Assembly (NCBI GenBank): GCA_000310025.1
Contig: FN649752.1
Location: 3,488,637 to 3,552,636 of the forward strand
Source of the DNA: Ectocarpus siliculosus
Taxonomy: Eukaryota > Sar > Phaeophyceae > Ectocarpales > Ectocarpaceae
Length of the DNA stretch: 64,000 bases
Direction of reading: 5' to 3'
Below are positions 20,923 through 56,731 of the stretch, piece by piece (within the stretch, counting starts at the first letter, position 1; every line of letters starts with the position of its first letter). A program made the translations under genes and the position numbers. The notes under the pieces were generated by a model. It was not told the origin of the DNA, did no database searches, and was given only the letters and a program-made list of their open reading frames with translations.

Positions 20923-23900
20923 TCAAGAACTTGCCTCTTTCAGTGTGAATGCGACCATCACGCGACCTTCCTGTGAAACGGCGGAAGAGAAAGCACTGCC
21001 GCCGCCGTTGCCTCGTCTACCTCCTTCTCCCCTGTTCGCGGCCTTCGTTGGCGTATCGCTATGGAAGGAGTCAGTGCTGTCGAGGATCTGTCGGATGCGC
21101 TGGCCTCTGCTCTCTAGCTCCTCGTACGATTCAGCTCCTGAGGAGTTTTGATCATCATCGGTCGGTGGTGACGGACTTCATGAAGTCGTCAGTGGTTCGC
21201 TTCGGGTGACCGAGCCATCTTCGCAGCGAAGGCGATATCTTGTCCTTACCAGATTCTTGCGACGGGATATTCGGCAAAGACGAAGCACACGCGACAAGTT
21301 TTGACCGCTGACGCGTAGCATCGGCGGGTTTTGTCGCTCCGCCCGCTGCGGCGTTTCTTCCCACCGTTGGTGTGTGCCCAAACCACTGGTCATGGTAAGA
21401 CCGCCACACAACTACAAGCAGTCCCCGTTTTCATTCAGAACGTTCGCATCAGGTCCTGCGGTATTGTGTTTCATTGCGATGGAGTTTCTAGTACAGAGAT
21501 CGCGGGTTAACAACATTGCCGCCGCCAGATTACTAGTCAATCAGGTATTTGTACGTTGGCTGCTTCCTCTCTTACCGATATTCCCGCCCGAAGCCCGCCC
21601 CCTCTGGGCGTCGATGTGGCAGAAAGCTGGCCACAGGCGCAATACGGCCTTCTCGAAGGCAGAAAGCAGGCGCGCCTCCCTCGCGGCTCCGGTAACCCCC
21701 ACCAGCCCGCCACCCAAGCCGCCCCCGCCCCCGCCCATCGCCAGGCCGGCGAGTTTGTTGGAGATGGTGGCCCCGAGCCTGCCGTCGACATGAGTCTTGC
21801 GCATTTCCGTTTCCCACTGGTTCTTGAGGGCCTGGATTTATTTTGTTGTCGGGAATAGCTTCGGTAGATTTATCGCCACCACGTGAGATTCATGCGACAT
21901 GGGCCGGCGGGATACAAGCCTATTCTCTCATCCTCGCCGCCGCTATAGAAATCGGCCCACACTCTGCGTTTTACAGTATTACTGTTGCCTGGATGGACCT
22001 CCTGCAGTCTGCCCCCATGCCAGGAAATCAACGTCGGAAGCACAGCTCGCACAAATTCTTCTAGGATATGCTTTTGTCCAAGATCACGATTGTGTCGCGC
22101 GACACGAGCATAGTCTATAAGGTTGTCGCCAAACATTCCCTCTCTGCGTACCAAGTACTTTCGCTATGAACGCCCACCATCATCAACGCGGGGTCTCCCG
22201 CCAGGCGGGGGAACAGCGCCAGAACGGGCTCCGATGATGCCGAGCCGGCCCCGAACCCGACGTTTCCCATGCCCCTGGCGCTGCGCTTGGCCAGGCTGTT
22301 GGCGGCGTACTCCCGGTAGTGCCGCACCAGAGACACGAAGGTATCCGACAGAATAACATTTCTAGGGAGTCGGAAGATGTCCTCCTGGTGTGAAAAAAAT
22401 GGATACGGCGCAGAGGTTGCAGAATTCATATATTGCTCATGCTTCCAGAGATCTTCGTACCCCTAGCATCTGCCCACGATTTCGCGAAACCATGAACGAC
22501 GAAGCGCTGCGTCGGGGAAGGCAAACGGAAGATCCGTACAGCCTCTATACGCTCGGCGTTGCCAGCAAAAGCGAAGACGAAGTGAAAAAAATCAATAGAT
22601 CTATATTACTTATCGAAATCGAATCTTTGGCACATGCCGGTAATAATTCTTGGGTGCCGGCTGAAGGAGTGTGACTTCGGATTGTGGGAAGCCTAATTTC
22701 AGCCTAATTGCGGGCCCAACAAGCAAAAGTGCCGCCTATTCACCTCAACAGAGGTCTGAAAACGGTGCAGTCAGGGCCGTCCATCCGAATTCATTTCAAA
22801 AGCGAGTGAACTTAGATCTGCGCATCGTTTTCACTTTTTTGCGTGTAGCAGACGTTGATGGTCCGAAGGATACAATCGGACGGGCCATCCATACCATCCG
22901 GTTGTCGTTAGAGTGGGACAAGGCAAACCTCTGGAAGGCAAACTTCTGACGGTTTCTGGTTCTTGGATAAAACGTTAGCCAACACCTTACGTCCCTATTC
23001 AACGACCTGTATGAATAAAATAAAGGACGACCGGTGTGCAACTGCCAGTGTTTGCTGAAGGGGGTAAACGCTACCTGAGCCACAAATTCATTCCAACCGA
23101 ATGTCATTCGACGCCCACAGCAAGGTTGAGTCCAGAATGACAATCTTTGGACAACAATGAGTAAGTGGATTGAGACCTGATTGAGTGGATTGAAACCCAC
23201 ATCGGGCGCCTGCATGCATTCAAGCAAAGGTGTCTAGGCTACGGTAGACAGAGGTCGGTCAAACAAATTTCAGGTCGGCCTTTTCCAGCCAGGCCCACAG
23301 AAAACTTGGCTTTGTGACGGCGGTTTCAGGCCTTGGTGGTGATCCAATCGGTTGATCTTAGGCTCACAACCCCTGACTTCAGGTTCACCATAACCTTCGC
23401 CTCAAAAAGATGAGGCTAGGTTGGGAAATACTAATAAGCTCACGATTTCATGTCTCAGGCGGATGGATTTACGCCTGCCAAATGTTCAAATACAGGCACT
23501 CGGAGGGTAGGTTCAGGGCTCAAACAATAAAAAAAAAGCAGGTCCCGGGATGATCAATTCAGGCACACACCTGATTCCACTGTACGATCTCTACGTTTGG
23601 GTTCGAAGGAAGTGAACTCTGGTAACAGGTGAAAGAATCTATCTCCAAGCTAGGAGGACTCACGCTAGCTGCCGACTTGCCTGCTTGGCCTTGCTGAGGG
23701 CGTTGACGGGGAGTATTTTTATCTCTACCTCGGACCCCTTGTGCAGCCCCTCGATCTTCATGGCCTTCAGAACAGCTCGCCAACCGTACCGCCGTGTCAT
23801 TACTTCGTCCTGCCCCGTGGAGAACCCGACCACGGGTTTTTCAGTGACACGCAGTCAGACAAAACACGCGGGACTACTTGGCGTCAAACGCATAATGAAG

Positions 23901-26900
23901 TGGGCTTCGGAGGTCTTGGTGGATTGTAAACACGCCCCGTGCACACGTTCTGTTGCACGTTCACCCGTAATTCACAACTCATCTGAGATATCAGTAGGAT
24001 TACGGGCCGCCCACTGCTTCATTCGCTACGTTTGAGTGTCTCCACCGTTTCAGTACCACCACGACACCACGCCCTACCTCGTTGATATCCGTCTTGGCGA
24101 ACGGCGTGCCCCCCAGCAGCTTATACCGCACCTTCTTCACCTCGTGGGATTCCACCAGCTCCAAGAAAGGGATCTGATGTGGTTTGATTGTTTCAATATT
24201 TAGCAAACCCGCATGGAATTAAGGAGAGGTGCTTGATGGGCCCTATCGTCTGTTCCAGCGGTGCCTCTGTATACTCGGATCTTCTACGAGGTAAGATATA
24301 CCGGAAGCTCCCTTTTCTTCTCGCAAGGATTCTACGCCGTGCTCAATGCTCGGGATTCTGGTAGGGGAGTGAGACGGAGGAATATGCTTCCGTATCGTGT
24401 ATGATACCTGCACCAACTACAGACAAAGGTGCATGGTTGTGGGGGTCTCTTACACCACCCCGCGAGCCATGGTGGCACAAACTTCTCACCAACACCCAGC
24501 CGCAGGACATCTCAACCTCCACCGTCCCATCCCCATCGTCCCTTCCCCCTTCGGCCGCTTGTGAGCTATCACTGCCCCTTCGCCGTGGCCCTCCACTCCT
24601 TCCTTCTCCTCCTCCTCCTCTTCCTCCTCCATCGCTGCCGCGCAAGGCCCTTCCCGTGCCCCCCCCGTTTCCCGCCTTCTTGCCGCCCCTCTTCCTCCCA
24701 GAAAAGGAAGAATCGCTCTCCCCGGAGTGGGAGCTATCGCCATCATTCGACTCCCCGTCGCTGCCGCCGCTGCTGCTGCTGCTGCTTCTTCCCGCGTGAC
24801 GGCCTTGACGGCGGCGTTTCCCCCCTGGCCCCTCGCTACGCACGCCGTTTCTACGGTGTCCGGAACGCCGACCGCCGCCTCTCCGAGGAGGCGGCGCGCT
24901 GCTGGTCTTCTTTTCTCGGCGGTTGCCGCCCGGCGCCTTTCGCCGCCCGCGCGCTTTTCTGTTCTTCTGTGCATTGCTGCTGCTGCTGCTGCTGTCGCTG
25001 TTGCTCCCGGTATCGCTGCTTGTTGCGCTCGCCGTAACGGAGCCCTCGCCCTGAGCGTGTTGAAATTCCAGACAAAAAGGCAGAGGCGGACGGGAGAGAC
25101 AAAACGATACGCTTGGATGTCAGGGGTGGACCTTGATGCGCCAGGACGTGCGCGCCTACAGACAGAGATGCTTTGCTAGGTTACACGAGGTCGATGTTGT
25201 CGATGGCGACGCCACCCGTAACGTAGTAGCGTACGGGAGGAGGGGGCTGCGCCATACTATGGAAGGGAAAGGGAGACATGACGTAAATATATCTGAGGAA
25301 GTTAATTAACGTCCTGATCGACCGGCAAGCTATGCACACGCTTTGTCGCAGCGAGGGTCTTGAACCTCCATTTCGCAAGCAGATGTTAAAGAGTATTCGT
25401 ACAGATCCTGATGGCTCTCGTAAGACGGAGATGCAGATAGGCGTTCGTTGTGGAAACGGACGTCAATAAACGAACAACGCTACGCTCATTCAACGTTTGG
25501 GTGATCATCCGTCCTATACATGTAGCTGCGTACGCTTTCGAAAAACGTCGTCAGTTTCGGCGTTGACGTCTTCACGAAAGTCCCGCTGACGTACGCACGA
25601 CAACTGCGGAAAAATAACGAGCAACTCATGTGAACGGCCAATGTACACGGATGTAACTCACGTGCACGACCATTGCACACGGATATAACCACCGCAAAAG
25701 TGAGGCAAGTTCACACACAGTGGTAGCTGATACCGTTGCTTACAAGCTCAAGGTGCGTCGTGCGGTTCTGTGCGGTGGGACCGGCTCACCTGCGAGCCCC
25801 CGTCCGAGTATTCGTTCCCCGAGCCCCCTTCACCAGAGTTCGAGTCCTCGCCCCCCCCACGCTTCTCTCGTATGCCGCCCACCCGCCCCCTGCTCTTGCC
25901 GCGACGACCGCCCGCGGTCGACGATGACCCCGCGCGGAAGTTCTTGAGCGGCCCTCTTACCCCTCCCCCGTCCATCTTCGCCGGGGTCGCCTCGTCCTTG
26001 GCGGTCTGCACCGTGCACGTGAGCTCCACCAGCAGGAACAGTCTCTTTCGGTCCCCTCGAGAGTGAGCCGAGGAGGGGTTGGTGTCTCGTGTCCCCTGTC
26101 GGCTACTGCTGCTGTTGCCGCTGCTGCTGCCGAAGTCTGTTCGGACGAGGAATTTCCGCTCCCCTTCGGAGGAATCGGGGAACAGCCACTGGGTTGCATT
26201 GGGAGAAGCGTCCGGGTGGATTCAGAGGAAGTAAAGGAGGCCGCCGGCAGCGGCGTGTGGCTCATCGTGTGAGTGTTGTAGCAGTAACAGCGGCATCGCC
26301 AAAGGACCATGTGATTTGTATACTCCTTGCGCTCGTCTTCAACGGTTTCTCCAGAAATACCAAAGGCCCCCGCTTGTTGGAGGGGGCTTTCGGGTGGCTA
26401 GGAAGCGGACCATTGGGCGAGTCTTGAGAAAGTGCAGGCCGACCGTCACGCCGAAGACGAAACATGGGCGGAATCCAACCTAACCCTACGTGAATGGCCG
26501 TGTATTGGGCGGAAAGGAAAACATGGGGCCGAACTCATCGTGCAAGAGGCCTTTAGCTTAACCAAATGACAAGTCCTTCTGTCCCATATCCACCACGCCC
26601 CTGCTCTATCTCTCGTTCTGGCACACACCTGCTCTTCCTTCTGAGGGTGCTGAATCGCCAGAGTCTTGTAGGTGTTGCACAGGAAGTGCTCGTTGTACTC
26701 CGAACTGGCCTCACCCGTGTCCCTGCCGACGGCCGAGGTGTGGAGACAGCGTAAGCATACGCTCGAGCATCGTCGGCCGTCTCGTTTTGTGGTAGCGGTT
26801 CGGAAGGCGTGTGCACGGTTCTTCTGCGATAAGCTACACAAGCTGGCGATCGTCCTCGCCGAACGCTTCCTCTAGAAAACTGTAGAACACCCCTTTTGAT

Positions 26901-27669
26901 GACGCAATTACCTGTCTACGTCCCTGCCAGCGTCGTAAAAGAGGCACGCGCGCATCCCCCGCTGGCGTATATCGCCCATCTTGGAGTCTCTGGCTACCGG
27001 AATCCCGAAGGCGTGCTTGACGGACAACTCCACCTTGAGTATCACGGATTTTATTGTTGCCGAACAACGAGGTTTACACCCCGTCAAGCGTGTGGGGTGC
27101 TGTTGGTGTTGTTCTGCGTGTGCGGCAAAAGAGGGACTCTACCGGGTGTGGATGCGCATGGTATTGCCGGCCAAGAGCACAAGAGCGACCATCAGCGTCC
27201 GCGGAGCGGTCGTGGTAGTTTGTTCCAGGCACGGCAGCGCCAAAGTTGTCGCAAGACAAAGGCTACATGGCGGATAGAAAAAGGCTTGTGTTGTAGTAGT
27301 GCCAGAGAAACTACGTACGTGCTAAACACTAACCACCAACTGTCCTAGGACGCCCTAAGCTATGATGATCCTCTTCAGGGCCTTCCAACAAAGGTCTCCG
27401 CAGTTGCACAGAGACCTCGTACCTGGTGACCCCCCAAGCACGTTCCTCAAGCAGTCTCGTCGAACCCCCGCCAACCAAGACTAAAACAGGGTGCAGGCAA
27501 AATGACAGGCATGCATACCTGCATCACCCCGCCGCCGCCACCTGAGCCGTCTCTCCGACCGCCGCCGCCGCCGCCGCCTTCCTCGGTGGACGCCCCGACC
27601 TCCTGCAGCGTCGCGCGCTTCATCACGGTCGTCGTGGTCTCCATCAGGCCGGCTCCGAGGATCGAGGAC
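20923..27669 (-). other. Nephrocystin-4-like C-terminal region of the giant gene (exons 29-39)
   Basis: Joined exons 30-38 show an ordered set of segments similar to the N-terminal half of nephrocystin-4 as I remember it. A strand-rich C2-like stretch (YNEHFL, then LAIQHP, then RLFLLVELTC) is followed by a MSCGWVL turn and a LLGGTPFA motif. Then comes a G-x-EIKILPVN strand, LPRNVILSDTFVSLVRHYRE, and an ALFPRL segment followed by a tryptophan. Human NPHP4 has a comparable order (SCGFGIL, then YHGTPRALL, then LLPENLLVSG, then LYPSL). A long Ser/Gly/Arg insert (24,490-25,050) interrupts the C2-like part. The C-terminal MSP/Ig-like half of NPHP4 is absent. In animals and algae NPHP4 acts at the ciliary transition zone. 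The match is from memory and needs a profile search. Confidence 0.55.
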
Positions 27670-30600
27670 CTGCCCGCGATCCGGGCAAGAAGGGCAAGAC
27701 GTACGGCGGTAGAGATTTACGTTGTTGGTAATCCGGTCTACAGTTATGGATACGTATGTATAGCACGGATTGGTCTTTTGCCGTATCGCAAGCAAAAATC
27801 AGGTCAACGCCTTTACGTCAATTCTTATTCGGTAATCAAGCTTTTGGTTATGAGTTCACAACATATCTATTCACCTGAGTATCAGCCTTGAATAAACGTG
27901 CTTAGGCGGGCTTGGCACGTATAGGCTATGGATAGGTAGCACGGATTGGTCTTTTGCCAGAACACAAAGCAAAAATCAGGTCAACACCTATACGTACAAC
28001 CTCATCTTACTCTGGTAATCAAGTTTTTAGTCATGAGTTCACGACATATCTATTCACTTGAGTATCAGACTTGAACAAACGTACCTAGGCGGGCTTGGCA
28101 CGGATGAGCTATGGATAGGTATAATAGCACGGATTGGTCTTTTGCCAGAACATACCAACAAATATCAGTTAGTTCACGAAACACCCATCCGTACAGGCCG
28201 TTTCTTAATCTGGCATTCAAGTTTGTAGTTCTGAATTCACAACTGTTCAATTCACTTTGTGTTATTGGCTGAAAACACTTGTACTTATGCAGCCTCGGCC
28301 TCGAAACCGAAGAGAACCTTGTTAGAACGCTTGGAAAACTCTAGCAAACATGTCAGAGAATCATGTAACAAAGGGTACGACAGCAACATACCGTCGGCTG
28401 CCCCTTTAAGCAGTCGCAACTCGGACAACATCTCGTGTGAACCCCAAAAGACAAGGACGACAACACGAAGTTGATGATCACCTTGGGCACGATCAACTTA
28501 CATTAACGATTTATTGATACCTAACATGGAAAACATCAAGAAAATGGAGTCCGATAGTTGTGTTTACCTTCGGCGTGTCTTGGTGCCTTTCGATTCGGTA
28601 ATCGCAGGAGGAGGTGATTTTTCCCTGTCCCTTCTTCCGAAGCCTAGAGTCGCCGCCAGGGACTTGGATGGGGATTTTTTGTTACTATTGCTGCCGCTGC
28701 CGCTTCCCCTGTCGGCCAGATTGGCCGTTTTCACCAGCACCTGAGGGCAAAACGAAACCCGTACAGAAGATATGTTGAGGTCTGTCACATCCGAACAATT
28801 CGCTGATTCTACATAAACAAGGAACGGATGAAGTGGTACTGTTTCTTTCTCTGTCTGTGTTCGAGGGTTTTAACTGAACCCCAGGGTCGACCACGTGCAT
28901 GGGTAGGGAGAGGATGGAAATGGTGGGCAACGTTCTCCTATACGGCGAATGTTAGATGCACCCCTGCGCTCTTTCGAAAAAATATAAGCTCAACCTAGAA
29001 ACAGGAGCCGTATCGTGTGTGTTTTGCCGCCATCGGCTGGTTGTACGCTTCTGCAAGAAAGTACAGAGTGAAAGAACAAGAGCGTGTGTGTGTGGGGACG
29101 CCATCGGTTTATTGCTCGTGTGTACATGTGGTTTCAATCCTCTTACCTGCCCCTGCGCGTCTGGCGGAGCCTTGCTGGCCTCCACTTCAGCTACCTCCGT
29201 CGTCACTTTCACGGACATGTCTTGCAGCTGTTTGAGACACAAGGGAGGAGTGAGTCAAGCGGTGTTGAAGACGAAAAGTGCGTCTGGTTGTAAAGTATGG
29301 CTCAGGGCTCACGCTTCATATTAGGCGCCAAGTATCACTTGTTGCACGAAAAATGTACTTTGGGTTGCACACCCCGTTATTGGAAGCAAGAGCCATGCTG
29401 CATTAGTTCGTCCCGCCTCTTACGTTCTGTAGACAATACCTGGATGCAGCCGCGGCTGTCGAGCTTGGGCATGAGCACCCACTGCAGGCTGAGCTCCTTG
29501 ATGTTGTCCAACGGCGCAAGCACGCTCTTGCGGCAGGATGAAGGCATCCCCAGGAAAGAAGACAGCTGCCCCTCCACGTCAGGCATCGCGCCCATTTGGA
29601 GCTTGCGCAAGGCTACCGCCACAACCTTTTGCAACATATATTGGTGGCGGTATTGATTGAATCGTGGATTCAGAATCGGAATTCTCAGCTGGAAAAACAC
29701 TAAGACCGTCGAGGGCTAGCTCAAAACAAGCAAGCGGACTTTGGCACTGGGGCTTGCAGGGGCAATTGCAGAAAAACACGCAAAGGGGGGAGGAGCGGGC
29801 TAGTGGGGCGGGAGGGACATGACCATCTACCCATCCCTTCACCGTGTTATAACTTGTACCACGATGCAGTAGATGAAAGATTGAAGAGTGAGCAGGTGGA
29901 CGAGCAGTTTCCTGTGTGTACCTCCTTCATGTCTGCAGGCAGCGCTGCGATACCCCCGCTCCCTGTCTCGTCGCCCACGAGCTCGAACAGCTTGACGAAC
30001 TCCACCCACGATACCTGCCCGCTCTGGTGTCTAGAGGAGTGGCCGCACAATCGGAGCGAACCGCACAGAACCAACAGCGGCACCAAAGCCAGGAACGGAG
30101 AACGCAAAGAAAAATGAAAGGGTGAGTAAAGGGACGAGGGATATCAAGAAGAATCGCCGGACGAGAAAGCGTATTTAGTCATTCTACAGGTCTAGCGCGC
30201 AGAACCTCGCGGACCTTGGTTGCTTTTGCGAGGGTTGGCGTGGTGGGCCTCAAGAAGACGGGAAAACCTAAGATTATCTTCGTCCCGACCGCCAAACCAG
30301 CTTGGTTAAACTCAAGAGGACAGAGTGAAATACACCCATCGTCCTCGGCGGTTCGTGAATGTTTGCCTTTGAATCACTTTGAGAGCAGCGGAATCAGGGT
30401 CACTTTGTGAGCAGCGGAAGCACCAGCGGCAGCTATATTTTCCACGGTACGCAATTTGTGTACACATATCGCAACATACACGATACCGTAAGACTCTCCC
30501 GCATGGCAGATATCCCGGGTTTTTCTTCACGACATTGCGCAGTTTTATAGTTTTATGCGCTGTTGAGGCGGGGGGGGGCTTTGCCTGTGAACCAAGGCAA

Positions 30601-42600: not shown

Positions 42601-45600
42601 GGAACAGTGGCAGTTTTTCCCTATGTCCCCTCCCTCAGAATGACTAATTTAGACACATTAAATCGCAGTTGAACAGGGCCACGAAATACACGCAAACAAC
42701 GAGTTGGGCTCGAATGCGCCAACACGATCTTGACCGAGTTCTGCTTTTATCCCCCCGTTGCCCCTGCGATTAAGGACACTCAAAAAACGATTTCTCACTT
42801 CCCCCTGGCGGTCGACATCGAACTCCCTGAACGCCTTCTCGGGCTTGCTAGCCTTCTTCTTCGCTTTCAGCAGACACAGCTGACCCGACGCCCGAGACTC
42901 CGCCTGCGAAGCACGCAAAAAAAGGAGGCAATCGCGTTCAAATACGTGGCGACGAAAGTGGAATATTTCGGAGGCTTCGTTCGGGGAGTGTAGCTGCGTG
43001 CATATTTTTTTTCGGGTCCACCAAAAACTTTCCCAATCTGGCGCAGCCACGATATCTCGAATGGTGGGGCGTAGTGGCAGGGAGAAATGACCCGTATTCC
43101 TTGCGAGATCCTGCAATGTTCGGAATGGGCAATGCACAAACAACTATTATACGACAACAACAGCCGTAGTAGTCTATTTATTGTATTAGACGTATTTCGA
43201 AAATAATCGCCAAAACGCGAGCGAGGACATGGTGACCGTATTCATGTCGGGTCTGGAGCCGCACTTCCCGGGGCCCTGCACGTAGAGAACGAATTCCTTA
43301 CATCCTTACATACAAAGAATTATTAGACTTAGGCAGTACAAGCGCTGTCGTAATGCTACATGTCATGATCCACTCTCACATCCCATGCCACACCATCCAG
43401 GGATCAGGCGGCAGCACATACATCTCTCACCGTCAACAAGCTTGATTTACCCGTAAACTTTTGGAGAGACATGTATGTTCGAGAACCACACAAATGTAAC
43501 GGGTGTTGTGACACAGCAACTTTTGCTACATGTACACCATCAACATCCGAAGATCCGTTCTTCGCAGTCCACTGCTGTACTACATGACCTGGTGCAGCAG
43601 TTCGGCGGTGCACTGCTAAAGATATAGTGGTAGAGCACACCAGCAATCCGTGCATATTATCCGTTCGAACTCGAAATATTTACCGTGCGTACAATACAAC
43701 AACACGAGTTGTATGTTCCGCGATACAACATCTAGAAAGCACCTCTTACCTTCCACCCAAATCGCAAGCACAACGGGACTACGTGCGGTGCCTGCTGCTG
43801 TGTAAGTGCGGCATGATTGTTGTGCCGCAAAACTACATTGAAATGTACTTATATATACGAGTACATCATGTTTTTTTTTTCTGCGTCTCCCCTTTGTTGC
43901 CTCGCAGTCTAATTGGCCAGCCGTGCACAGTACGAGGCACAGGAGAAGGCGGGAAAGACTGAGAGCTTTGGACACGAACACAGACACAGATTTCGGGATC
44001 TGCTGAATCCATGGAGCTCTCTGATGATGAGCGTATCGGTCTGGTCGGGTTTCTGAGCGAGCACGTGAGCAAGAAGCAGCTCGAGATGGTGGAACACAAA
44101 GCCTGGAACTGCCTAAAAGACGATGCTGATCACAAGATTCTCAAAGGCATCCGGAAGTTGGTGTTCGTGCGCATGGACAGGTGAATATAGCAAAGCCAAT
44201 GCTACGGTTGTAACTGGCATGTGCATGGGTGCCCCTTGAACGTTCCAGCGTCACGCTCTGCTCCCCTTTCCTCCCCCCCTCTCTCTTGAAAAGCGCGGGG
44301 GATTGCTGGCGTGCACGTGTGTGTGTACAAAGTTTTTTTTTTTTTTGTCCTACAAAATCAGAGAGATACAATTGTATTGCATCAACAGCATTTGTGCCGA
44401 TTACTCCAGCCCGTGGTCGCACAGAGGGTTCCTCTCCCTGAGGCCCCCTACCCACCCCTCCTACGGTGCTGTTGCCTTCGATTTTTGTGCGAGAAAGAGT
44501 GCAGTACTCTATTCCCTGTGTGCAAACGAACTATCGCTTTCCACCCAGGCCAGGAACGGAAGCGAGAAAAAACCTTGCTATTTATCTATTTATGAGGTTT
44601 TCCCCTCTGACATAGACGAGTAAAACGGCTGAAGAGTTGGTGGTGACCCATAGTCGCCCTCATCCGTTGGATTCGCACATCATTCTAGTTCCCACGCGTG
44701 CCTGCCGTGTGTATATGTGCTGTTTGGCCACCAAAGCTTGCCTACGGCAGCAGCAGCACACGACACCTACCTAAAGCACATGCTGCGAGGGTACAGTACA
44801 AGCCGGGAGCCCGCCCCCCAACCAGAGGATCCTACAATACCGCAACGGCCTTCCTATGCACATGTGCCTACCAAAGGCCCTGAATGGTATCACGAGGGTG
44901 TCGTTTAATGTTTCACGTGCCGTGCCCAACAACTTCCTGCCTTGTGTCTTCGTCCCAGCCCCGAGAGCATGTCTCAGTCCAACTTCAACACCCTAATCAA
45001 CAGACGCTTGGGGATACCTCCGGGGCAGCAACAGCAACAGGTGCGCATGAAAGTGATCTCTTATGCAATGCTCGCCCTGAAACGCAGCATTCGAGCATAC
45101 GAGCAATCAATTGTTTGTCATAGACCGATTTCTGCACCCGTGCCCACCCTGAACACTTGACTTGATCAGCCAATGTGGCGAGGGCACACATGTATCCGGG
45201 GGGGTATTCCACCGCCCGGCGCACTCGACAGGATCTATCCAGTACGCACATCTGTGCAAGGCAGGATGTGATAAGCACGGCCTTAGTGCGCTCTCCTTAG
45301 CCTCTGCTCTGGCGTTGTGTGGTGTGTGGGCCTGGTGTGTCGGCGCCATGCGTCCCTTGCTTCACGTAAGACCTATCGTGATCCCTCCTGTTTTCTTCGT
45401 CGGTGTCACACAACGGGTGTTACGACGGTGGCGCTAAAGTTTTCTTCCAACATTAATAAAGCAGTCGTCCTCGCGACATTACTCGTTTGTTCTCCTGAGC
45501 CGTCGAGCTTCGGTTCGCTTTGGACGACAGGCTCGAAGCCAAAGCTGACCTCTGTCGCGGTGTCTTTCTCCTCAGGGTGGTTCTGCCAATGCAGCGAATA

Positions 45601-48600
45601 GCAGCACTCCCAACCATGCGGGTCGTGCCAGCGGGGGCGGCGGCGGATCCAGAGGAGGCCCTGCTCAAGGGGCCAACCATGTGAGGACGCCATATTGCGC
45701 CTTCTACAGCAGAGCGTGCATGCTGTCAGCTTCCACCAGCATATAGTACTTGGCAGCCCGAATCAAAACTAGCGACGCCTCCTGAACACGCATTTTTGTT
45801 CGTGCCCCAAACGCCAACCTTTGCCTGCCTGCTTAGAGTGGCGCCGTAAACGGCAGCCCCAACCCTGCCAGTGGCGGTTCCGGGGGCGGAGGTGGATCTG
45901 GATCTGGACAAGGCTCTGCTCAAGGGGCCAGCCGTGTGAGCAAAGTGTTGAACCTGCCCCGAGCGTGGTACCGCACAGCACTTCCTCCGTCTTGTTCTTT
46001 TCCTTCTGCAAACCATGGCTGCCGCGCGTGGCACGAGTTGCTCGTCCACCCGAAACAAAACCAGCGGCACCTGTTCTCCGTAGTCCCTTTCCGCTCCCAA
46101 CGCTGACCTTCGTTTCCCCCGCTACAATAACAATGTCTCAGGTTGGCGCTTCTAACGGCAGCCCCAGCCCTGCGGGTGGTGGTTCCCGGAGTCGCGGAGG
46201 CGATTCTGCTCAAGCGCCCATCCATGTGAGCACAGGGTTTCCGCCCCCGCGCCTGGACTTTTTCGTGCATGCATGATTTAGGGGTGCAACAGGTCCACGC
46301 GGTTGTCGTTCGGCGACCCATCTGGAAAAATAATGAAAAGGTCCATTTTCTCGGGGCTACCGGTGGGCGCCTAGGAGAATCGGACAGTCCGCGTATTTGA
46401 CAGCCGCTTTCGCTCCGTACTGAACCCTTTTACATGTTGAGACGAGATGCCGTAGACAAGGTCACCGCTCATGCAAAAATAGAAAGACGTGCGCGGAGCG
46501 GCTTGTGTATCTTTAGACCACACGCCCCGTAGATCACCCGAAACGTCGCTGCACGCGAGGGTGGAAGCAGCAGGTGGTACGGATGTAGTGGGAGATATTT
46601 GATCGCCCGTCAAACCCATTTTTTTAGTTAGCGACTTGCTGGTTTACGTCTGCCTTTGTTCGTTGTGTGCAGGTGTCTGCGGTAGAGTTGGAAGACACCG
46701 ACGACGAAGAAGAAGGAGACACCGTGTCTGAGCACGACCAGAACGACGACAACGGGGGAGATTCGGACGGGGGAGATACCGACCTCGAGGACACCCCCGC
46801 CGCGAAATATGAAGAGCATAAATGCGGCTTCCTTCAGCGCCGCAGATGGAAGGTGAAGGAGTTCGAGCCTCCGGGAGAGCCGCCAGGGAACGGGTACTGG
46901 GTCGATGCAAGTAGCGAGGATGACGGAATAGTGCTGTTTCGGATGTCGAAACCGGGCGACCTGGAGCGGGCGAAACCCCGGCCGGCGCCGACCTACATCA
47001 CCAATAACCCTTACTGCACGGATGCGCCTAAGGCGGCGTACGTTAAGAGGCTCACGATGTACGGCCTCTTAAAAGTCGTGGGTGTTTCTTCCCAGGGCGG
47101 GATCTGGCGGGCTCCCGACGCAGAGATCGAGAGGGTCCTGAAAAAGGACCCTCGCGTACCATCCGACATGTTTGGCATGTCTGGTGATGCGTACGTCAAG
47201 GTCATGGGGGAGGCTTTCCGTCGCCACCAGGAAGAAAGAGATGAGATCCAAAGGGAGGCTGAAGAAGAGAGCGAGGATGAAGTCGCTGCCCCACAGGGGA
47301 AGCGCTGTCGAGTAGATTTCAACTCTTGATTTTGCAGGGCACGGTGCACGGCCAACCGTAGACCGCGTGCGACCCCATGAATTTTGGTTTGGTTTAGGTC
47401 TCGAGGCCATGAATTTTGTTTCGAGGGGGGATTCTGTGCCGGAAAAAGGTACAGTATTGAGTTTTTTCAGCCGGACCCGCCGCCGACCGAGGCAGCCCGC
47501 CAAAGTCTCATGTAGCTGTTCTATGTAGGTCGTGTTTTCACAGTTGATTCCTGAGCATGGTAGCAACCGGGGGTTACATCCCTTGTGGTCTTGCCCGAGC
47601 ACTAGTCTTTTGTTGCACACCACCAGCGAGCGTACGTAAGTCTTGTGGGCTTGCATGTTTGGTTGAAAGGGCGCAAGATGCCGCAGCTGATCTCTTTATG
47701 TCTCATGTGAAGAGCTAATTTATTGTTGGCTGCCAAGCCAGTACTCAGCCACCCACAACAAACTACAACGACATTTGACTTTGCCAAGTAACTTCCCCAA
47801 CAGCCCGCCGTGGCACAGCCACCGACAAACGTAGGATCACCTGGATGCTTGCTGAATGTGCCACAGTGGCAGCTGGTCGGGGGGGGGGGGATGCCGCGGG
47901 CGTAGCGAACTGAAAAGCGTTTCGTACTGGTTGGGTTTATATGCTATGGCGTAAATATGGACCTCGTTGTTTTTGAAGTATGTATATACGCTGTATACTT
48001 CGCAATAATGTTGAGGCATGTTTCGAAAATAGTAACCTGGAGCCCTTTAAGGTTTTGTGGTCTGTTGCAACCGTGCAAGGAAAACCGGCTGAACGATGCG
48101 ACTCGCTGCAGATTCTCCGACCGCGGGGTAGAAGGGTTTGTCTCCAAGCGTGTGCTACAAAATGTACTGCGTAGTATCAGGGATCTACTCCTATTTGATT
48201 CAGCCGGGGTCCAAACGATGATAAAAGAAGAGAAAAATGCGCAATAGGTGACAAGGCTTCCATTAGTTATACGGCGCATACGGCTTCGGTTTCTCCGCGA
48301 GAGACGCCAGCAGGTTCTCTCGTAGAGTAGTCCAAAGTTGCTCATATTATTGTTATCTCTCACGAAATAGTAGGCTGGCATCAAACAACAACACCGAAGC
48401 ACTCGCCTGGGTAACATCGAAGCCCGATGTCAGCCACACAACGAGCCCTTCTCGGTCCACCTTGCCGCGATCGGCGGGATCTAGCCTCTCCGCCAGAAGT
48501 TCGGCGTCTTCGCTAGACACTCTAGCACCCACCCTTTGGAGCTTCAAGTACAGGAGGGGGGGGGGGAGGGGACAACAGGAATATTCGTCGGTGGAAGACA

Positions 48601-51600
48601 GGGCATCGTGAATGTACCGGAAGCCCAATTTGAAACTGACAAGATATACTGTACGCTATTAATAGTACCTTGTTTGGCGAGTTATTCCATCTCGTCATGA
48701 AAATCTCAAGCAACTGTCTATACTGTTCTTCGCGAGCTGAAGAGGTTGGCATGTGCCCAGGCAAACCTGCGAGACCGCAAGGACAACCCGCAATTTGGAT
48801 GGAGTATGTCACAATTGTAGGGAAAACGTAGATTATTTTTGGCACAAGCCAACGTGTTCGCAAAATATCCTCAACCACGGGCGTCATTTCGATGTCCGCA
48901 TTGGATTCTAGACAACGGTTGACCAGAGGGCATGTGACGCGCCTTCAACAAGTTATTACGAGAACAGCGGTGCAACTTTGAACCATAAACGCAATATCTG
49001 TGGTATTCGTTACCCGCCGGAAACGAGTTCGGTTCCTGAGTGGGATGCCCTCTACATACAGTCAGCAACCCACGGTGTACTACCGAACTGCCCTTCTCGA
49101 ATCACCGGGAGCCGGGTGCTAGCTATACACCCCGACAGCACCCCATACAGTCTATGCAGGCGGTCAGTTCTCTGTCGTTTCCACGCTACCATCGCTCCAT
49201 ATTACAGTACTGCCATCGCCTTTTATTAAAGACGGTTGCCCTGCTCACCAGTTTCTTCAAGTCCCCCGTTGTGAGCAACCCCGATCCCTTAGGGTGCTCC
49301 AGCTTGGAAAGCGTTTTAGACACGGCCGCACTGGCGGCCTCGGCTTCCTGGCTCTCTTTACGTCCTTTTCGACCTCGACCATTCGTGGGCTTAAAAAGCT
49401 GTTCGCAGACGCTGCTGTAAACCTTGGATACCTGGAAACACGGCAAGAATATAGACTAAACTTCAATAATGCACGTGTTTTGTACTTAATTTCCAACGCG
49501 ATTGTGTAACCCTCTCAATCGACGGTCGCTGGTGCGCTTGTCCCAGCAGCAGCGAGGGAGAACGAGAAGTCCTGCTTCTTGAGGTGGGTGGTGCTTCATG
49601 AGGCGGGCGGCCTCTCATTGGTTGCTGACACGAGACCGGCGCTCCCGAAACGAATCTGCATCGTATATTAATCTACAAAGCAGTGACGCTGAGGCAAGGT
49701 AACTCGCTTCTTGTACCTTCTTATCCTCAAACGTGGACAGCGCCACCTCAAGTAGTCCTTGAAGAGAGAACGAACCAAGGCCATCAGGGTCCACGACGAC
49801 CATCACCTCGGCGAGGGACGACTCCTCGAGCTTCACCCTAACGTGTCGAAGCAACCTGCTTCGGTCGGGTGTAAGCAACAGCAGACTAAGATCAGCAGCA
49901 ATAAGCTCAGCCGTACAGGAAATACGATGAACGGAGATATCGCAAAGAGTTGGCACAGCAAGTGTGAGACGCACTTGGATTCATCGAAGACAAGCTTCAG
50001 GTGCCGTTGTTTCTAAACGTATCCTCGATGTGATGGAATTTACATCATTTTAACTTCATCGCCATAGCAATGTACAGCTGCCCGACTCAGTTGTTTCGTC
50101 AAGGCGTTCATCACGGACCGTGCTTGTATCAGCAGGAATTTGTCGTGCGTGTAGGACACCCGCCACCATTTACCCGAAATTTTCATGGTTTGCGGTGCTA
50201 CAATGTGCCTCAAACACGCACCCACCGGTGAGTACAATGTTCGACAGGTAATGGGCGCTCTGCATGTTCACTCACGGTTTTAGGCTCGAAATCGGCAGGA
50301 CTCGACGCCTCCCGCTGCCGTTCAGCTTGTCGAACTCCTGCCGCAGACTCCCGTCGAAAGCCGAGCCTCCTAGCTTTCTCAGCGCCCTCGAGCCCTTGTT
50401 GCCGATAAGTGCGCCTCCCATGCCTTGCCCGTCAGACGAGGTGTCGCCACCAAGTTCGCTTCCGCTGCCAGTATCCAGCTTTTTCCGCTGCGTTGGAGAG
50501 CGACGTTCTGGTGCGGCCTTGGCCTTTGCATGGTGGTGGCGGCGGTGGAGGCGCCCGCCGCCGCTACTACCGCTGCTGATTCTACTGTCCAACGAGGAGC
50601 TAGAGCCACGCACCCGTCCTCTCCGTGCCACCGACGCCGGTCCCTTGATGGCGGACTCCGACTCCGACTGGTCCGATGCCAGTTCCGATATCGAAGCATG
50701 ACGGCGGCCACCACGGGTGGCGGAGCCGGACGATCGCCTTCGCTTGATCGGAGATTTATTTCTTCCTGACACCAAACCTGCAAGGGCAGAAGGAGCAACA
50801 CAGCCGTGGTTATCGACGTCCGGGCAGCAGCGCCGGAGCGCTCGGGCTTCGCGAGTTGAGATCTCGATGCCAACCCTTGCTAGCACACGCCCCAAGGTGT
50901 TTTCGTCGATACCACCGGTCGACCGCCGCAACCGCTCGAGCTTCCGCACGAGGTCGTCCACGGTTTTCCCGGCGTGGCGGAGGGAGCGCCGCACTTTCGT
51001 CGCTGCCGCTTCCGCATCCTCGCTCGCGGTTTCTTGAGGGATAGGCGACCTTTCCTTGCGACGGCCTCTCTCCGTCCCTCGGTAGGATCCTTCGTCGCTC
51101 GAAGTGTCCGCACCACCACTCCTCCCGCGATTGCTTGTTCGGGGGCTGCCTGCTCGCACAGTACCATCAGGGTAGTGCGGCAGACGGACGAGGCGAGGCT
51201 CGATCCCCTTCTCCAGTTCGCCGTCTCTGCTGTAGCGGACGTCATACGTACCGTCAGAATGTACTCTGGTTACCTTGCCGCTATGCCAGGTAGACCCCCC
51301 CCGGAGACGCGCCTCCACTTGGTCGCCCTCCGCGATCGCGACCGTTTGACTTCTTTTCGTGGTGTCTCTGTACCTGCTCTTGCGGTCGCTGTCGCTGTCG
51401 CCGCTGCGGGAATCTTTTTTCATCAAGGACCGGACGTGGCTAGCCGGTACGTTCCTCTCGCTCTTTCCACCGCCGTACTCGACGTCGTAGGAGCCATCGC
51501 GATGGACGCGAGCGACCCTGCCCAGCCGCCACATCGAACTGCCTCGCAACCGGGCTTCAACGTCGTCCCCAGCACGAGGAAGGTCCGCCCTCCTTTCCAG

Positions 51601-54600
51601 ACTCCGAGTTTCACCTCGGTCGTGGACCTTTCTCTCTTCGCCCTGGTCGACGTCGGTTCCGGTCTCGGAACCAGCCCGGGACACACCCCTTCTCGCACCG
51701 CCTCGACCGCTGCTTTCTGCTGTCTTCCCGCCGGCGCGGTCGCCTTCGACCTTCCGGATATGGTCCCGCTCCACAGCCGTTTCAAAGTCTCCGTCGTCGT
51801 ACGACAAGCTGAAAGTCCCATCCCTGTTTTTTCCTTCTACCGTCGCCTTGAACCAACGTGACCCCGCCCGGAATCTTGCCTCAACCTTGTCTCCCACTGC
51901 CAAGCCGCCGGGGGACTCTCCGGCTGCACTCCCCCCGATCGGCCGCACGAACGCTGCCTCGACGTCGCGCTCTGAGTCTCCGTCTAAGTACCTGATGTCG
52001 TAGCTTCCGTTCGCGTTTACCGCCCGAACCTTTCCCGGATACCACTTGCGCCCGCGTTTGTACCTCGCCTCGATCTCGTCGCCGATGCGGTGCGCCGCGG
52101 ACACCTCCGTCGCGTATTTCTCGTCCCTCTTTGTTTCACCGCTAGGCCTGGCCAGGCTCCTGATTAGCTTCTTGTCAACGGACCTTTCTACGTCTCCATC
52201 GTCGTACAACAAACAATACGTCCCGTCCCTGTTCTTTCCCTCTACGGCGGCCCTGAACCAGCGCGAACGGCCTCCAAACCTAGCCTCCACCTTGTCGCCT
52301 ACCGCAAAGTCGTTGCTGCGGCCGCCACCGCCACGCGCGGTGTCGCTTGTGTTGGTACTGGTCGCCAGCGAATCAACACTGACGGCCCCCTTGCTGCGAA
52401 CGAGCGATGGATCTACGTCGCGCTCGGAGTCGCCGTCCTTGTATGTAATGTCCATCGTTCCGTCTCGGTTTACCCTCCTCACCACGCCCGGGTACCACTT
52501 TCGACCCCTCTTGTACCTCGCTTCCACTTCGTCGCCGACTCGAAAAGCCTTACCCGCCGCACTATCGGTCTCGGAATCTACTCCGGACACCACACGCCGC
52601 CCGGGGCTCCTGTTCCCGGCCGTGGGGGACGTGCTCGCTCCGACCCTACGAATCAGATGTTTCTCAACGGCCCTCTCCTCGTCTCCGTCCACATACAATA
52701 GATGATAGGTACCGTCCCTGTTCTCCCTCTCAATTGTGGCCTTGAACCAGCGAGACCGACCTCCGAACCTGGCTTCCACCTTGTCGCCCCGAGAGAAGCT
52801 AGCGTTGAACGCGGATGAAGCCAGCGAATCAACGCTGATACCCCCCTTGCTGCGGACGAGTGTTGGGTCTACATCACGCTCGGAGTCGCCGTCCTTGTAT
52901 GTAATGTCCATTGAACCATCTCGGTTTACCCTCCTCACCACGCCCGGGTACCACTTTCGACCCCTCTTGTACCTCGCTTCCACGTCATCTCCGACTCGAA
53001 AAGCCTTACCCGCCGCACTATCGGTCTCGGAATCTACTCCGGACACCACACGCCGCCCGGGGCTCCTGTTCCCGGCCGTGGGGGACGTGCTCGCTCCGAC
53101 CCTACGAATCAGATGTTTCTCAACGGCCCTCTCCTCGTCTCCGTCCACGTACAATAGGTGATAGGTACCGTCTCTGTTCTCCCTCTCAATTGTGGCCTTG
53201 AACCAGCGAGACCGACCTCCGAACCTGGCCTCCACCTTGTCGCCCCGAGAGAAGCCGGTGTCTGCAGAAGACGAAGCCAGCGAATCAACGCTGATACCCC
53301 CCTTGCTGCGGACGAGCGATGGATCTACGTCGCGCTCGGAGTCGCCATCCTTGTATGTAATGTCCATCGTTCCGTCTCGGTTTACCCTCCTCACCACGCC
53401 CGGGTACCACTTGCGGCCCCTCTTGTACCTCGCTTCCACGTCATCTCCGACTCGAAAAGCCTTACCCGCCGCACTATCGGTCTCGGAATCTACTCCGGAC
53501 ACCACACGCCGCCCGGGGCTCCTGTTCCCGGCCGTGGGGGACGTGCTCGCTCCGACCCTGCGAATCAGATGTTTCTCAACGGCCCTCTCCTCGTCTCCGT
53601 CCACGTACAATAGGTGATAGGTACCGTCCCTGTTCTCCCTCTCAATTGTGGCCTTGAACCAGCGAGACCGACCACCGAACCTGGCTTCCACCTTGTCGCC
53701 CACCGCAAAGTCTCTGTCGGCGGGTACAGAGTCCAGCGAGACCGTGCTGGCACCTGCATGACGTGCCCTTGCGTACCCGTCGGCCGCGTCCTCGGCCCTA
53801 CCGCCGCCGCCCCTGCCGCGCTCGCGCGCTGCACTAGCGTCCCGGACGGAACCGGTGCTTAAACTACGGACTAGCCTTGCGTCGACATCGTACTCTCGGT
53901 CACCATCGTCGTACTTGACGTCGAAACTCCCGTCTCTGTTGGCCGCTACAACGATTCCGGCGTACCAATTTTGACCCCCTTTGAATCTCGCCTCGATCCT
54001 GTCGTTGGCACGGATCGCCGTTTTCCTGGCGTTGCCCACGTCTGAACCACTATCCAAGTTGGACGCTCCTCGTCTGTCAGCGACTGCGCTACTTGGTCGT
54101 CGCGGGCTGCTGCCGCTGCCACCATTGTCACCGCCGCTCCCGAGTGCTCGTATCAGACGGCTCTCTGCCTCCCGCTCTTCGTTGCCATCCGCGTACACCA
54201 GTCTATACGTACCGTTCCTGTTCTTCCGCTCGACCGTTGCCCTGGACCAGCGTGATCTGCCACCGAAACGCGCCTCGACCCTCTCGCCCTCCGCGAACTC
54301 CTCCCTCCCCGCCACGTCGTCCCTCGCGCGACGATCCGCGGGGCTCCTGCTCCGTGACGCCGCCCTTCCGTCCGCAGTCGAGGAGCCTACACCCTCGATT
54401 CTGCGAATCAAGTGCTTCTCAACGGCCCTCTCCTCGTCCCCGTCCACGTACAACAGGTGGTAGGTGCCGTCCCTGTTCTCCCTCTCTACGGTGGCCTTGA
54501 ACCAGCGAGAGCGCCCGCCAAACCTGGCTTCCACCTTGTCGCCCCGAGAGAAGCCGGTGTCCGCAGAAGACGAAGCCAGCGAATCAACGCTGACGCCCCC

Positions 54601-56731
54601 CTTGCTGCGAACGAGCGATGGGTCTACGTCACGCTCGGAGTCGCCGTCCTTGTAGGTTATGTCCATCGTCCCGTCTCGGTTTACCCTCCTCACCACGCCC
54701 GGGTACCACTTTCGGCCTCTCTTGTACCTCGCTTCCACGGCATCTCCAACTCGACAATTCTTGCCCGTAGCGCTGCCTGTTTCTGACTCAACGCCCGACA
54801 CAACCCGTCGCCCGGGGCTCCTGCTTCCCGACCTTGGTAGCTCTCCGCCGTTGCCGATCCTACGCATGAGAGACTTGTCTACCGCTCTTTCCTCGTCCCC
54901 GTCTGCGTAGATCAGCCAGTAGGTCCCATCCCTATTCTTCCGCTCGACCGTGGCCTTGTACCATCGCGATCGGCCACCGAACCGCGCCTCCACCCTGTCG
55001 CCCTCGGCGAATTCCATGGAGTCGACACTGTCGCGGCCGTTGCCTCTGCGTTCCCCGTCGTCCTCTTCCAGCGGCCGAACCATGCTTGGGTCGAGCCGTC
55101 TCTCCTCGGTGCCATCCCGGAAACGGACATCCAGTGTACCGTTTCGGTTTTCGCCGACGACAGTGACTCGCTGCCACCGGTTCGTCCCTGGCGCCCTAGC
55201 CTCCGCCCTGTCTCCGAGGCGGTAAGCAGGGGCGCGCCCTGCTTCTGTTCCCCCACGGCGCTCTTCATCGCGCCTATCGATGTTGCCCCCTCCACGGCCG
55301 CTGTCTCTGGCTTCCTCCGACCTGATGGCGGAGGCATCTAGGCCGAGGTCCTCGTCGCCATCATCATAGCGCACATCGTACGTTCCTCCGGCGTTGACTC
55401 CTACAATACGGCCCTTGTACCACCGCCCTTTTCCGCGAAAACGGCCTTCGACCTTCTGCCCCAGACGGTACTTGCCCGTGTCAGACCCGCTGCATGTAGG
55501 TGCGGTGGGCGGGGAAACTGAGCAGATGTGGAAAACGTGCAAGAGATGCATCGCGTTGTTGTTTGCAACCTGCGTTTAACACATTTTGTGCATCCTTGTT
55601 TGGCTATACTAGAGCAAGGAGTGGCGCGTCTCTGCTATGTACCGATAAGGAAGAACAGAGTCCACGAATTCTTGGAGCCGGTGAAAAGAAAGCGAGTGCA
55701 CGCGACTCTCACCGAAGTTAGGCTTTGTAGTGCTCTCTGACAGTAGACCTACAGCGCAGCAGGAACGTTCAAGTCTATGCTTAAAACCTGTATCACCCGC
55801 TGAAGAATGCTACACACAAGTACAGACGAATCGACGAGTATTTAATACAAGATCTCAAGCACCAGGCGCTTTTTCTACCGTAGATATTTTGCTGCTGGTC
55901 GAATACGAACCCCAGAAGCTAGTTGTGGCAGAAATAAAGATGTGACCGAACCCACATACCTGGCAGCGTCGCTCCCATTTCGGTCGGCTCTCCCATATCC
56001 CATGGGAGAATCGGTTCTTCTTCGAGCCATGGACTTGGCCGCGGCCTCGTCGTCTGAAGACCCGCGTGCACGCCTAGAATCCCTTTCGCGTGTCCGAACT
56101 GAGTCTGTAGAATCGACGCTGGGTCTCCTGGCCGCGACTCTTGAGTCTGTTGCCTTTGCATCTGCTCTACTGCAAATGTTTACGCCAAAAAGGATGGAAG
56201 TCTTTTTTCAGTTATTGTGTACGCGCAGTGAGCTAGAATTTATTGGAGCACCGGTTGGGTGTGATCTCTGTATGTACGCTCGGTCTATGTGGCCGTCGAG
56301 CTCCATGACCGAGGTCGCACAAGCATCTAACAGACCCTCTTCTGCAGTGGTGCATCAGAAGTATATCTATTGTGTTTGGATTAATGGCGACGGACGTGTG
56401 GCTGGAAGTCGTCACACCGCGATACAGATACATAGAGTACATTGTAGGGTGATCAGTTCATCATGCAAAGATCTCTTACGCTCACGACGCGAAAGAGACA
56501 ACTTGGCCTCGGGAACAACTGATGTCCCAACTGTACTGCACAGCAGCCACCACACGCAAGGCACATGTGATGCTTCACATACCCTGACGGCGGCCGCGCC
56601 CGAATAGGTCCGTCCGTCGACCTGGCCCCGCTACTTCGCCTCCCAGCTGCAAGCCTTGATGCAATTCTTGGTGGAGGCCGACCCCTGCTGCCCCCATTGT
56701 TGCTCATGTCGAATTCCATGACATCCCCCAT
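20923..56731 (-). CDS. Giant Tudor-repeat / EF-hand-array / nephrocystin-4-like protein, 39 exons
   Basis: Proposed single gene, about 4,010 residues. Exons in transcript order: 56731-56583, 56169-55960, 55489-50276, 49855-49717, 49431-49249, 48713-48669 (tentative), 48541-48407, 42903-42799, 42037-41894, 41021-40726, 40371-40215, 39668-39423, 38822-38667, 38127-38023, 37826-37569, 37167-37093, 36711-36589, 35957-35656, 35234-34955, 34709-34465, 34306-33913, 32420-32238, 31898-31789, 30900-30799, 30030-29922, 29625-29440, 29227-29147, 28740-28568, 27669-27519, 27033-26912, 26722-26629, 26044-25790, 25246-25187, 25050-24490, 24173-24078, 23809-23681, 22384-22178, 21816-21576, 21137-20923. All junctions agree in phase. 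The start is the Met of MGDVMEFDMSNN. Residues about 120-1555 are 18 Tudor/Agenet-like repeats, about 1620-3300 are EF-hand modules with charged linkers, and about 3300-4010 resemble the NPHP4 N-terminus. Two introns use GC donors (48406, 23680). The 3' end is uncertain: I read through a possible GC donor at 20,934 to TGA. It could instead be two or three adjacent genes. The EF-hand and NPHP4 content suggests a ciliary, Ca-responsive scaffold; this is inference. Confidence 0.72.
27741..28262. repeat. Intronic tandem repeat of about 176-188 bp, three copies
   Basis: AGCACGGATTGGTCTTTTGC occurs at 27,762, 27,938 and 28,126, and each copy continues through AAATATCAG/AAAATCAGGTCAA and GAGTTCAC. 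Copy 3 is the most diverged. The array fills most of the intron between exons 28 and 29 of the giant gene. No ORF spans the copies. Confidence 0.85.
32527..32931 (-). mobile_element. SINE-like interspersed element, copy 2
   Basis: Reverse-strand counterpart of the element at 11,590-11,943, running from GCGGTAACC (near 32,931) to GAGTACACCCCC (near 32,527). Diagnostic shared blocks include AATAAATTAAGTCA and CCGAACACCCTTAGCAGG. It contains about 65 bp missing from copy 1 and so is probably nearer full length. It lies in the intron between exons 21 and 22 of the giant gene, in the same orientation as that gene. Confidence 0.75.
33149..33835 (-). other. Unassigned 228-codon open frame in an intron
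   Basis: A single uninterrupted minus-strand frame lies in the intron between exons 21 and 22 of the giant gene, next to the SINE-like element. It has no recognisable domain, a mixed composition unlike the neighbouring exons, and no obvious splice-site pairing with them. It is either chance or a relic of a mobile element. I do not call it a gene. Confidence 0.2.
34861..34907. repeat. CCCT tetranucleotide microsatellite, intronic
   Basis: About twelve perfect CCCT units lie in the intron between exons 19 and 20 of the giant gene, upstream of exon 20 of the - strand transcript. Confidence 0.9.
38941..39128. repeat. Direct repeat of about 91 bp, two copies, intronic
   Basis: Two copies spaced about 97 bp apart share ATGTTGTGCAAT, AAACCATATCCACAAA and GAATGTTT blocks and end with CGCGTGACCC or GCGTGACCC. 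They lie in the intron between exons 12 and 13 of the giant gene. Divergence is about one position in eight. Confidence 0.8.
44011..47329 (+). CDS. Hypothetical nuclear-type protein, nested gene, 6 exons
   Basis: Exons 44011-44180, 44959-45040, 45576-45680, 45837-45935, 46142-46225 and 46673-47329 join in phase to 398 residues. I chose the Met of MELSDDERIGLVGF as start; no better upstream start is visible. The N-terminal 65 residues look helical. Residues about 85-180 are three related Gly/Ser/Asn-rich segments, one per exon. The last exon begins with a strongly acidic stretch (ELEDTDDEEEGD), then a folded-looking region of about 130 residues with many aromatics (RRRWKVKEFEPPG, YWVDASSEDDG, YGLLKVVGV). 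It ends in a charged helix and a basic GKRCRVDF tail that could act in nuclear import. I recognise no family. The gene lies wholly within the intron 42,904-48,406 of the giant gene, on the opposite strand. Confidence 0.7.
45576..46225 (+). repeat. Tandemly duplicated Gly/Ser-rich exons
   Basis: Exons 3, 4 and 5 of the nested gene are phase 0 at both ends and encode related peptides (NGSPNPASGGS and NGSPSPAGGGS; AQGANH, AQGASR and AQAPIH). The introns after exons 3 and 4 also align in part: CCCGAATCAAAACTAGCG matches CCCGAAACAAAACCAGCG. So the unit duplicated was exon plus intron, with spacings of about 261 and 305 bp. Confidence 0.75.
51180..55480 (-). repeat. Array of 18 Tudor/Agenet-like repeats in one giant exon
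   Basis: Each unit is about 50 residues with the pattern VGDxVEARFxxxxRWYxxxV, then RDGTYxxxYxDGD, then a basic LIRR-type end. This is the five-strand Tudor/Agenet/chromo-like barrel signature with conserved aromatic and acidic positions. Two subtypes alternate: A (RFGGRSRWFKATIERENRDG, ending AVEKHLIRR) and B (YKRGRKWYPGVVRRVNRDG, ending DVDPSLVRS). Linkers between units are Ser/Arg/Asp-rich. Tudor-type barrels usually bind methylated Lys/Arg or act as assembly modules; which applies here is unknown. The exon (50,276-55,489) is far longer than any other in the window. Confidence 0.85.
52290..53660 (-). repeat. Near-identical 456-bp tandem units within the Tudor array
   Basis: One A+B pair of Tudor-like repeats plus linkers (152 codons) recurs three times at a strict 456-bp spacing. 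For example, the segment starting ACCCGCCGCACTATCGG occurs at about 52,552, 53,008 and 53,464. The copies differ at only scattered positions, including silent ones. Flanking pairs, such as the one near 54.4-54.8 kb, are clearly more diverged. This indicates recent in-frame expansion or gene conversion. Confidence 0.9.

Follow-up and report, generated by a model that had tools for sequence, protein, structure and literature searches.

An Ectocarpus gene model joining a Tudor repeat array, EF-hands and a nephrocystin-1-like C-terminal region in one predicted protein

The window analyzed here, a 64,000-nucleotide stretch of the Ectocarpus siliculosus genome, carries on its minus strand a gene model that extends over positions 20604 to 56731 and joins 38 exons (x1 to x38) into a frame of 4033 amino acids. 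The model was curated by hand, then corrected using the proteins of relatives, and contains no in-frame stop. An earlier note on this DNA had proposed 39 exons chained in phase down to a 3' end at 20923; the single in-phase minus-strand chain holds, with 38 exons as its number, and the end lies at 20604. The stop at 20923 was replaced by a GC-AG intron and a last exon (x38, 20604 to 20624) that encodes VAFDVA and the stop, the evidence being a GC donor at 20935 and the C-termini of relatives, which read KEVAFDVA in Tribonema, KEVAFDAA in the EukProt protein g8289.t1 (P0004) and EVAFGVSSV in Heterosigma. Every one of the 37 introns ends in AG. The donor is GT in 34 of them and GC in the other three, namely CAG/GCGAGT after 48407, CAG/GCAAGT after 23681 and GAG/GCAAGT after 20935 (the slash marks the exon edge). 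Three GC donors would be many for a gene of 37 introns, provided that the model holds. Tandem repeats also occur within introns, at 27760-28152 (183 bp, 2.2 copies) and 38931-39124 (96 bp, 2.0 copies).

Relatives of the predicted protein came from three protein searches, which gave three matches among 7999 scored candidates, six among 1927 (including the query itself) and six among 6046. P0001, a Pylaiella littoralis protein of 3825 aa that is marked partial, and P0004 (4031 aa) both contain the Tudor, EF-hand and nephrocystin-1 (NPHP1)-like parts, in the same order as in this gene. The Hapterophycus protein (P0005) spans the Tudor array into the EF-hand array; that of Ectocarpus sp. 12 (P0006), which comes from a contig of 26.8 kb and may be cut, spans the Tudor array to x12; and that of Ectocarpus sp. 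4 (P0009) spans x21 to x34. P0001 is 59% identical to this gene over a BLAST segment of 3502 columns, and per-exon identity is about 89-100% in P0006 over x3-x12 and in P0009 over x21-x34. Thirty-four of the 37 exon junctions are matched (no gap, at least 40% identity, about 16 residues) in at least one of eight relatives, all of which are listed gene predictions or sequences without a stated origin rather than cDNA. These junctions, together with the P0001 and P0004 models, bear out the proposal that Tudor repeats, a large number of EF-hands and a nephrocystin domain belong to a single gene.

The three remaining junctions lie at the two ends of the gene. The x1-x2 and x2-x3 junctions are unmatched under this criterion, P0006 covering both and P0004 the second, and exons x1-x2 (55960 to 56731, aa 1-119), which were placed by an open frame and splice sites only, are the least certain part of the model. 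Read in this frame, x2 agrees by eye with the beginning of P0004 (MARR..SP.GYGR), and P0006 uses another frame in this region. The x37-x38 junction is too close to the end for the criterion, and VAFD agrees there by eye with P0004 and Tribonema. Within the gene, the exact start of x8 is in doubt, with extra residues in P0006 and P0001 and an acceptor score of only 0.1; over x26-x27, P0001 is at odds with the model (26% and 21% identity) and P0009 in agreement with it (27/27 and 53/57). Several alternative models were rejected. Automatic exon chaining with low penalties broke the region into far more than 100 small exons, and stricter chaining cut the region into three genes, at points where the relatives run on continuously. 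An exon at 23618-23571 was initially included and then dropped; it is absent from P0001, P0002, P0003 and P0004.

Exon x3 (50276 to 55489; 5214 bases, with a 1767-aa open frame) contains the entire Tudor array and a degenerate EF-hand-like stretch. A profile built from the repeats themselves counts exactly 18 Tudor repeats (51172 to 55464, aa 129-1559), each with an i-E of 1.6e-22 or better, as the earlier note had counted. Pfam Agenet matches the array with an E of 2.5e-62, and one alignment column is Trp and another Tyr or Phe in all 18 repeats, positions that we take to be those of the cage. Inside the exon lies a 456-bp tandem array (52364 to 53701; TRF, 2.9 copies), each 152-aa unit of which corresponds to two Tudor repeats. 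The synonymous/non-synonymous codon differences between its three copies are 14/8, 13/12 and 15/13, the pattern that selection on the protein would leave. At this tandem array P0006 lacks 152 aligned residues and two repeats, and the total number of Tudor repeats is 19 in P0001, 22 in P0004 and 18 here. A Tudor exon whose repeat number differs among related species offers a natural test of repeat-driven protein growth.

When a Tudor unit was searched against the genome (G000, 189.5 Mb in 492 contigs), its 39 matches fell at this locus, on contig C11 and at the start of contig C153. The C11 locus (G000:C11:3641161-3646644) is a second Tudor array, in which a single 1990-aa open frame contains 25 repeats of this family, with a run of 100 N inside. 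The array of P0004 carries, by eye, the repeat subtype that this genome shows at C11, which suggests either that modules moved between loci or that both arrays derive from an older common source. Two metagenome proteins, P0007 and P0008, were matched as Tudor only.

The EF-hand array runs from the tail of x3 to x25 (29440 to 50340, about aa 1836-3203). Pfam finds seven EF-hand_7 stretches (2+2+3) over three segments from x3 to x26, with E values up to 3.8e-28. The whole protein has three strict EF loops, whereas 500 shuffles of aa 1601-3300 averaged 0.064 and never gave more than 2; two further near-canonical loops, DQDNSNSIDATE and DRHQSGQVSWVE, were found by eye, and the other EF units are degenerate. 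Four loops become complete only by splicing (DVDRQGE/VRKTD, LDK/DGDGMLDYEE, DTNR/SGSIKRKE and LDR/HQSGQVSWVE, the slash marking the junction), as had been proposed from the joining of neighboring exons, and the two homologous modules that had been singled out are present as LDPADRGKVDREGLVVWLTSG in x6 and FDPVEEGT/ITYEVFAAWLSSG across x13-x14. About five loops keep near-canonical ligands, and the protein may be calcium responsive. Strict loops number five in Heterosigma, three in Tribonema, one in P0001 and none in P0004, so the calcium ligands are better kept in the relatives that lack Tudor repeats. The possible EF-hand-like stretch within exon x3 (50749 to 50943, aa 1636-1700) is weak: Pfam gives no EF-hand match for the version in the window or in P0001, and for that of P0004 an EF-hand_7 match at E 0.011, below the cut-off. 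The occurrence of Tudor repeats and EF-hands within one exon is therefore weakly shown. Matches of P0003 and P0009 to XopAW (NCBIfam) were set aside as EF-hand matches under the cut-off of that model.

The C-terminal region, encoded by x25-x38 (20604 to 29625, about aa 3142-4033) and containing low-complexity inserts in x31-x32, has no Pfam family, and its PDB matches are at chance level only. In hhalign, a family profile built from nine stramenopile sequences, of which the program kept eight, matches human NPHP1 from about aa 244 to the end with a probability of 99.1%, an E of 4.6e-18 and 26% identity over 386 collinear columns; the human sequence is a provisional one that agrees with PDB nephrocystin-1 chains over aa 1-115 and 146-212, both outside the part compared. 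Twenty shuffles reached at most 0.51% and the reversed sequence 0.06%. In hmmsearch the family profile scores 52.6 bits against this provisional NPHP1, the best of 500 shuffles reaching 2.3 among the 197 that were listed, and 51.5 bits when the sequence from the window is left out. Taken separately, the two halves reach 9.0 and 33.5 bits, where shuffles give no more than 4.8 and 4.1, and single sequences score 21.4 for Heterosigma, 24.8 for the window and 31.5 for Tribonema (best shuffles 6.4, 2.9 and 10.8). On these comparisons, the predicted protein is homologous, in its C-terminal part, to the C-terminal half of NPHP1, and the collinear region includes the stretch with GFRPS, SCGW, GGTP[FY] and ALxxxW of the provisional human sequence.

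A direct genome search with the provisional human NPHP1 was empty up to E 10, an answer that with this tool shows nothing; the link to NPHP1 thus rests on the stramenopile family. None of the six matches of the third protein search (profile A1) bears the name NPHP1. All genome matches of P0010 (7/7) and P0014 (2/2) lie in this gene, those of P0010 in the NPHP1-like region; two of these seven read through a stop, which is usual for matches that reach into an intron.

Nephrocystin-1 is a cilium gatekeeper that in humans is 732 residues long, and animal NPHP1 has an SH3 domain and coiled coils. Here, in contrast, the 4033-residue product has EF-hands and 18 Tudor repeats, and no SH3 domain was found among Pfam families in aa 120-1857, 1813-2094, 2190-2566, 2666-3230 and 3231 to near the end; the provisional human NPHP1 gave SH3_1 at E 8.2e-14. 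We therefore refer to the gene as an NPHP1-family member and not as a canonical NPHP1.

Proteins of Heterosigma akashiwo (P0003) and Tribonema minus (P0002), presumably a raphidophyte and a xanthophyte, are both called 'Calmodulin' in UniRef. They share with this gene the EF-hands, the same C-terminal domain and the EVAF C-terminus, but no Tudor repeat was found in them; P0002 begins inside the array, and its N-terminus could be cut short. Among proteins whose source is named, a Tudor array together with EF-hands was found only in brown algae (P0001, P0005 and P0006), in keeping with the suggestion of the earlier note that the full architecture is lineage-specific. At the sequence level, the EF-hand array precedes the NPHP1 domain, and a Tudor array of varying length stands before both in those brown-algal models that reach that far. 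Since Heterosigma and Tribonema have EF-hands and the NPHP1 domain without Tudor repeats, the simplest order of events would be that these two parts were combined first and that the Tudor fusion came later.

The same genome encodes other components that point to a ciliary setting. A provisional NPHP4 C-terminal sequence finds an NPHP4-like locus at C1:475871-476140 (E 6.2e-15) and C1:475414-475644 (E 1.6e-7, one stop inside). B9-C2 domains give eight matches on four contigs, Meckelin three on C9, two of them over the cut-off, and C2-C2_1, which we take to be a domain of RPGRIP1 proteins, two on C11. The transition-zone machinery thus appears to be encoded in this genome. The gene product most likely serves as a flagellar transition-zone scaffold, which may respond to calcium, and we consider it probable that the locus is a single brown-algal NPHP1-family gene of about 4030 residues whose product acts in this way, with EF-hands and multivalent Tudor contacts. 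The NPHP1 domain would anchor the protein, with NPHP4 and an RPGRIP1-type partner, at the transition zone of spore and gamete flagella, and the Tudor array would occupy the position at which animal NPHP1 has its SH3 domain and coiled coils. A rise in calcium may then alter, through the EF-hands, the shape or the partners of the protein, and the many Tudor barrels may provide multivalent binding, perhaps to flagellar proteins that are methylated on arginine or lysine. An array of the calcium-sensor type, a Tudor array and a ciliary-gate domain would in this way be tied into one polypeptide.

Barker and colleagues reported NPHP1 as restricted to opisthokonts, the group of animals and fungi, and NPHP4 as more widespread, in a survey that used cut-offs of 1e-10 for PSI-BLAST and 1e-15 for HMM searches (PMC4092220). 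A stramenopile NPHP1-family gene would widen the range that the survey gives for NPHP1, and these cut-offs could be too strict for a relative this distant. The presence of such a gene in a genome that also has NPHP4-like, B9, Meckelin and C2-C2_1 domains makes an early NPHP1, later lost or overlooked, a testable idea. A wider scenario, which we put forward tentatively and as the less probable part of our reading, is that the NPHP module, with NPHP1 and NPHP4 both present in a stramenopile, is older than the opisthokonts, that ochrophytes have an NPHP1 with a built-in EF-hand array, and that the brown-algal fusion of a growing Tudor array turned it into a calcium-tuned, methyl-reading flagellar gate.

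Chromatin proteins are the best-known carriers of Tudor repeats, and a different reading is that the product is a nuclear chromatin reader, with the Tudor array recognizing methyl marks on histones and the NPHP1-like domain taken over from a former ciliary role. The best Pfam matches of the array (Agenet, SGF29 and other Tudor-type domains), its conserved Trp and Tyr/Phe columns and the basic low-complexity stretches of the protein fit such a role. However, the matches to the NPHP1-like region fall at one locus, and the transition-zone domains described above are encoded in the same genome, and a Tudor-less form exists in relatives of two other classes. We regard the nuclear role as unlikely, and a flagellar scaffold as the better account.

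Considerably less probable is the view that the earlier note and annotation pipelines wrongly joined two neighbors, one gene with the Tudor array (x1-x6) and another with the EF-hands and the NPHP1 domain (x7-x38). The intron between x6 and x7 (42904 to 48406) is 5.5 kb long, has a GC donor (CAG/GCGAGT) and contains a nested open frame on the plus strand. A division at this point would also agree with the proteins of Tribonema and Heterosigma, which are without Tudor repeats; with P0004, which lacks x6 and x7, and the P0006 model, which ends after x12; and with the C11 locus, where a Tudor array exists separately and no EF-hand or NPHP1 open frame was recognized by eye after its stop. Against this, the x6-x7 junction is matched ungapped in Pylaiella (P0001, 0.81) and Hapterophycus (P0005, 0.69), though it is unmatched in P0006; P0004 has both sides in one protein; EF units are already present in x4-x6, upstream of the intron; and the P0006 model, which ends after x12, may be cut. 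P0004 is short of five exons in all (x6, x7, x15, x26 and x33), and these are found elsewhere, x26 and x33 in P0009 and x6, x7, x15 and x33 in P0001. The x27-x28 junction, near 27.7 kb, is crossed by P0001, P0004, P0009 and P0002. The two signs of separate genes that the earlier note had named, an end near 48.35 kb and an independent start near 27.7 kb, are thus contradicted by the relatives' models over x6-x7 and x27-x28, and we retain the single gene.

The open frame nested opposite this intron (46676-47329, plus strand) encodes 217 residues with an acidic start and is preceded by repeated exon-like units rich in Gly, Ser and Asn. It has no Pfam match, and its two weak relatives lie on the same contig.

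An NPHP4-type C2 region, the least credible of the alternatives for the C-terminal domain, can appeal to an SCG[WF] motif region that we take to be shared by both proteins and to a score of 1.4 bits for the Tribonema sequence alone against NPHP4 (E 0.0063 for one sequence), but hhalign gives NPHP4 0.1% compared with the 99.1% of NPHP1, the family profile leaves NPHP4 unlisted, sub-profiles reach at most -2.1 bits and the NPHP4-like locus lies on another contig. The NPHP4-type N-terminus of the earlier note is accordingly replaced by a C-terminal domain that resembles the C-terminal half of NPHP1.

Our search of open-access journal papers found no report of a stramenopile or oomycete NPHP1, of a protein combining Tudor repeats, EF-hands and NPHP1, or of a brown-algal protein with Tudor repeats and EF-hands; for nephrocystin together with Ectocarpus it returned only one paper, on diatoms, in which the mention is unrelated. 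On NPHP1 and the last eukaryotic common ancestor, the survey of Barker and colleagues and a Drosophila paper came up. NPHP1 is absent from the main text of a phylogenetic-profiling paper (PMC10425847). The gene is real, most likely single and very large, and has an architecture that we found described nowhere in the literature searched.

Two other genes were noticed in the window. At 57.1-60.7 kb, on the plus strand, a neighbor carries seven PGPxxY/F motifs of the SHIPPO (sperm-tail PG-rich) type and is possibly a second flagellar gene adjoining this one; Pfam SHIPPO-rpt (E 1.4e-7) matches only a rough join of its exons, and its open frame at 59222-60946 has no Pfam match by itself. From about 0.4 kb, also on the plus strand, lies a Peptidase M16 gene of the insulinase family, recognized on two predicted pieces by Peptidase_M16 (E 4.4e-12) and M16_C (E 6.9e-6).
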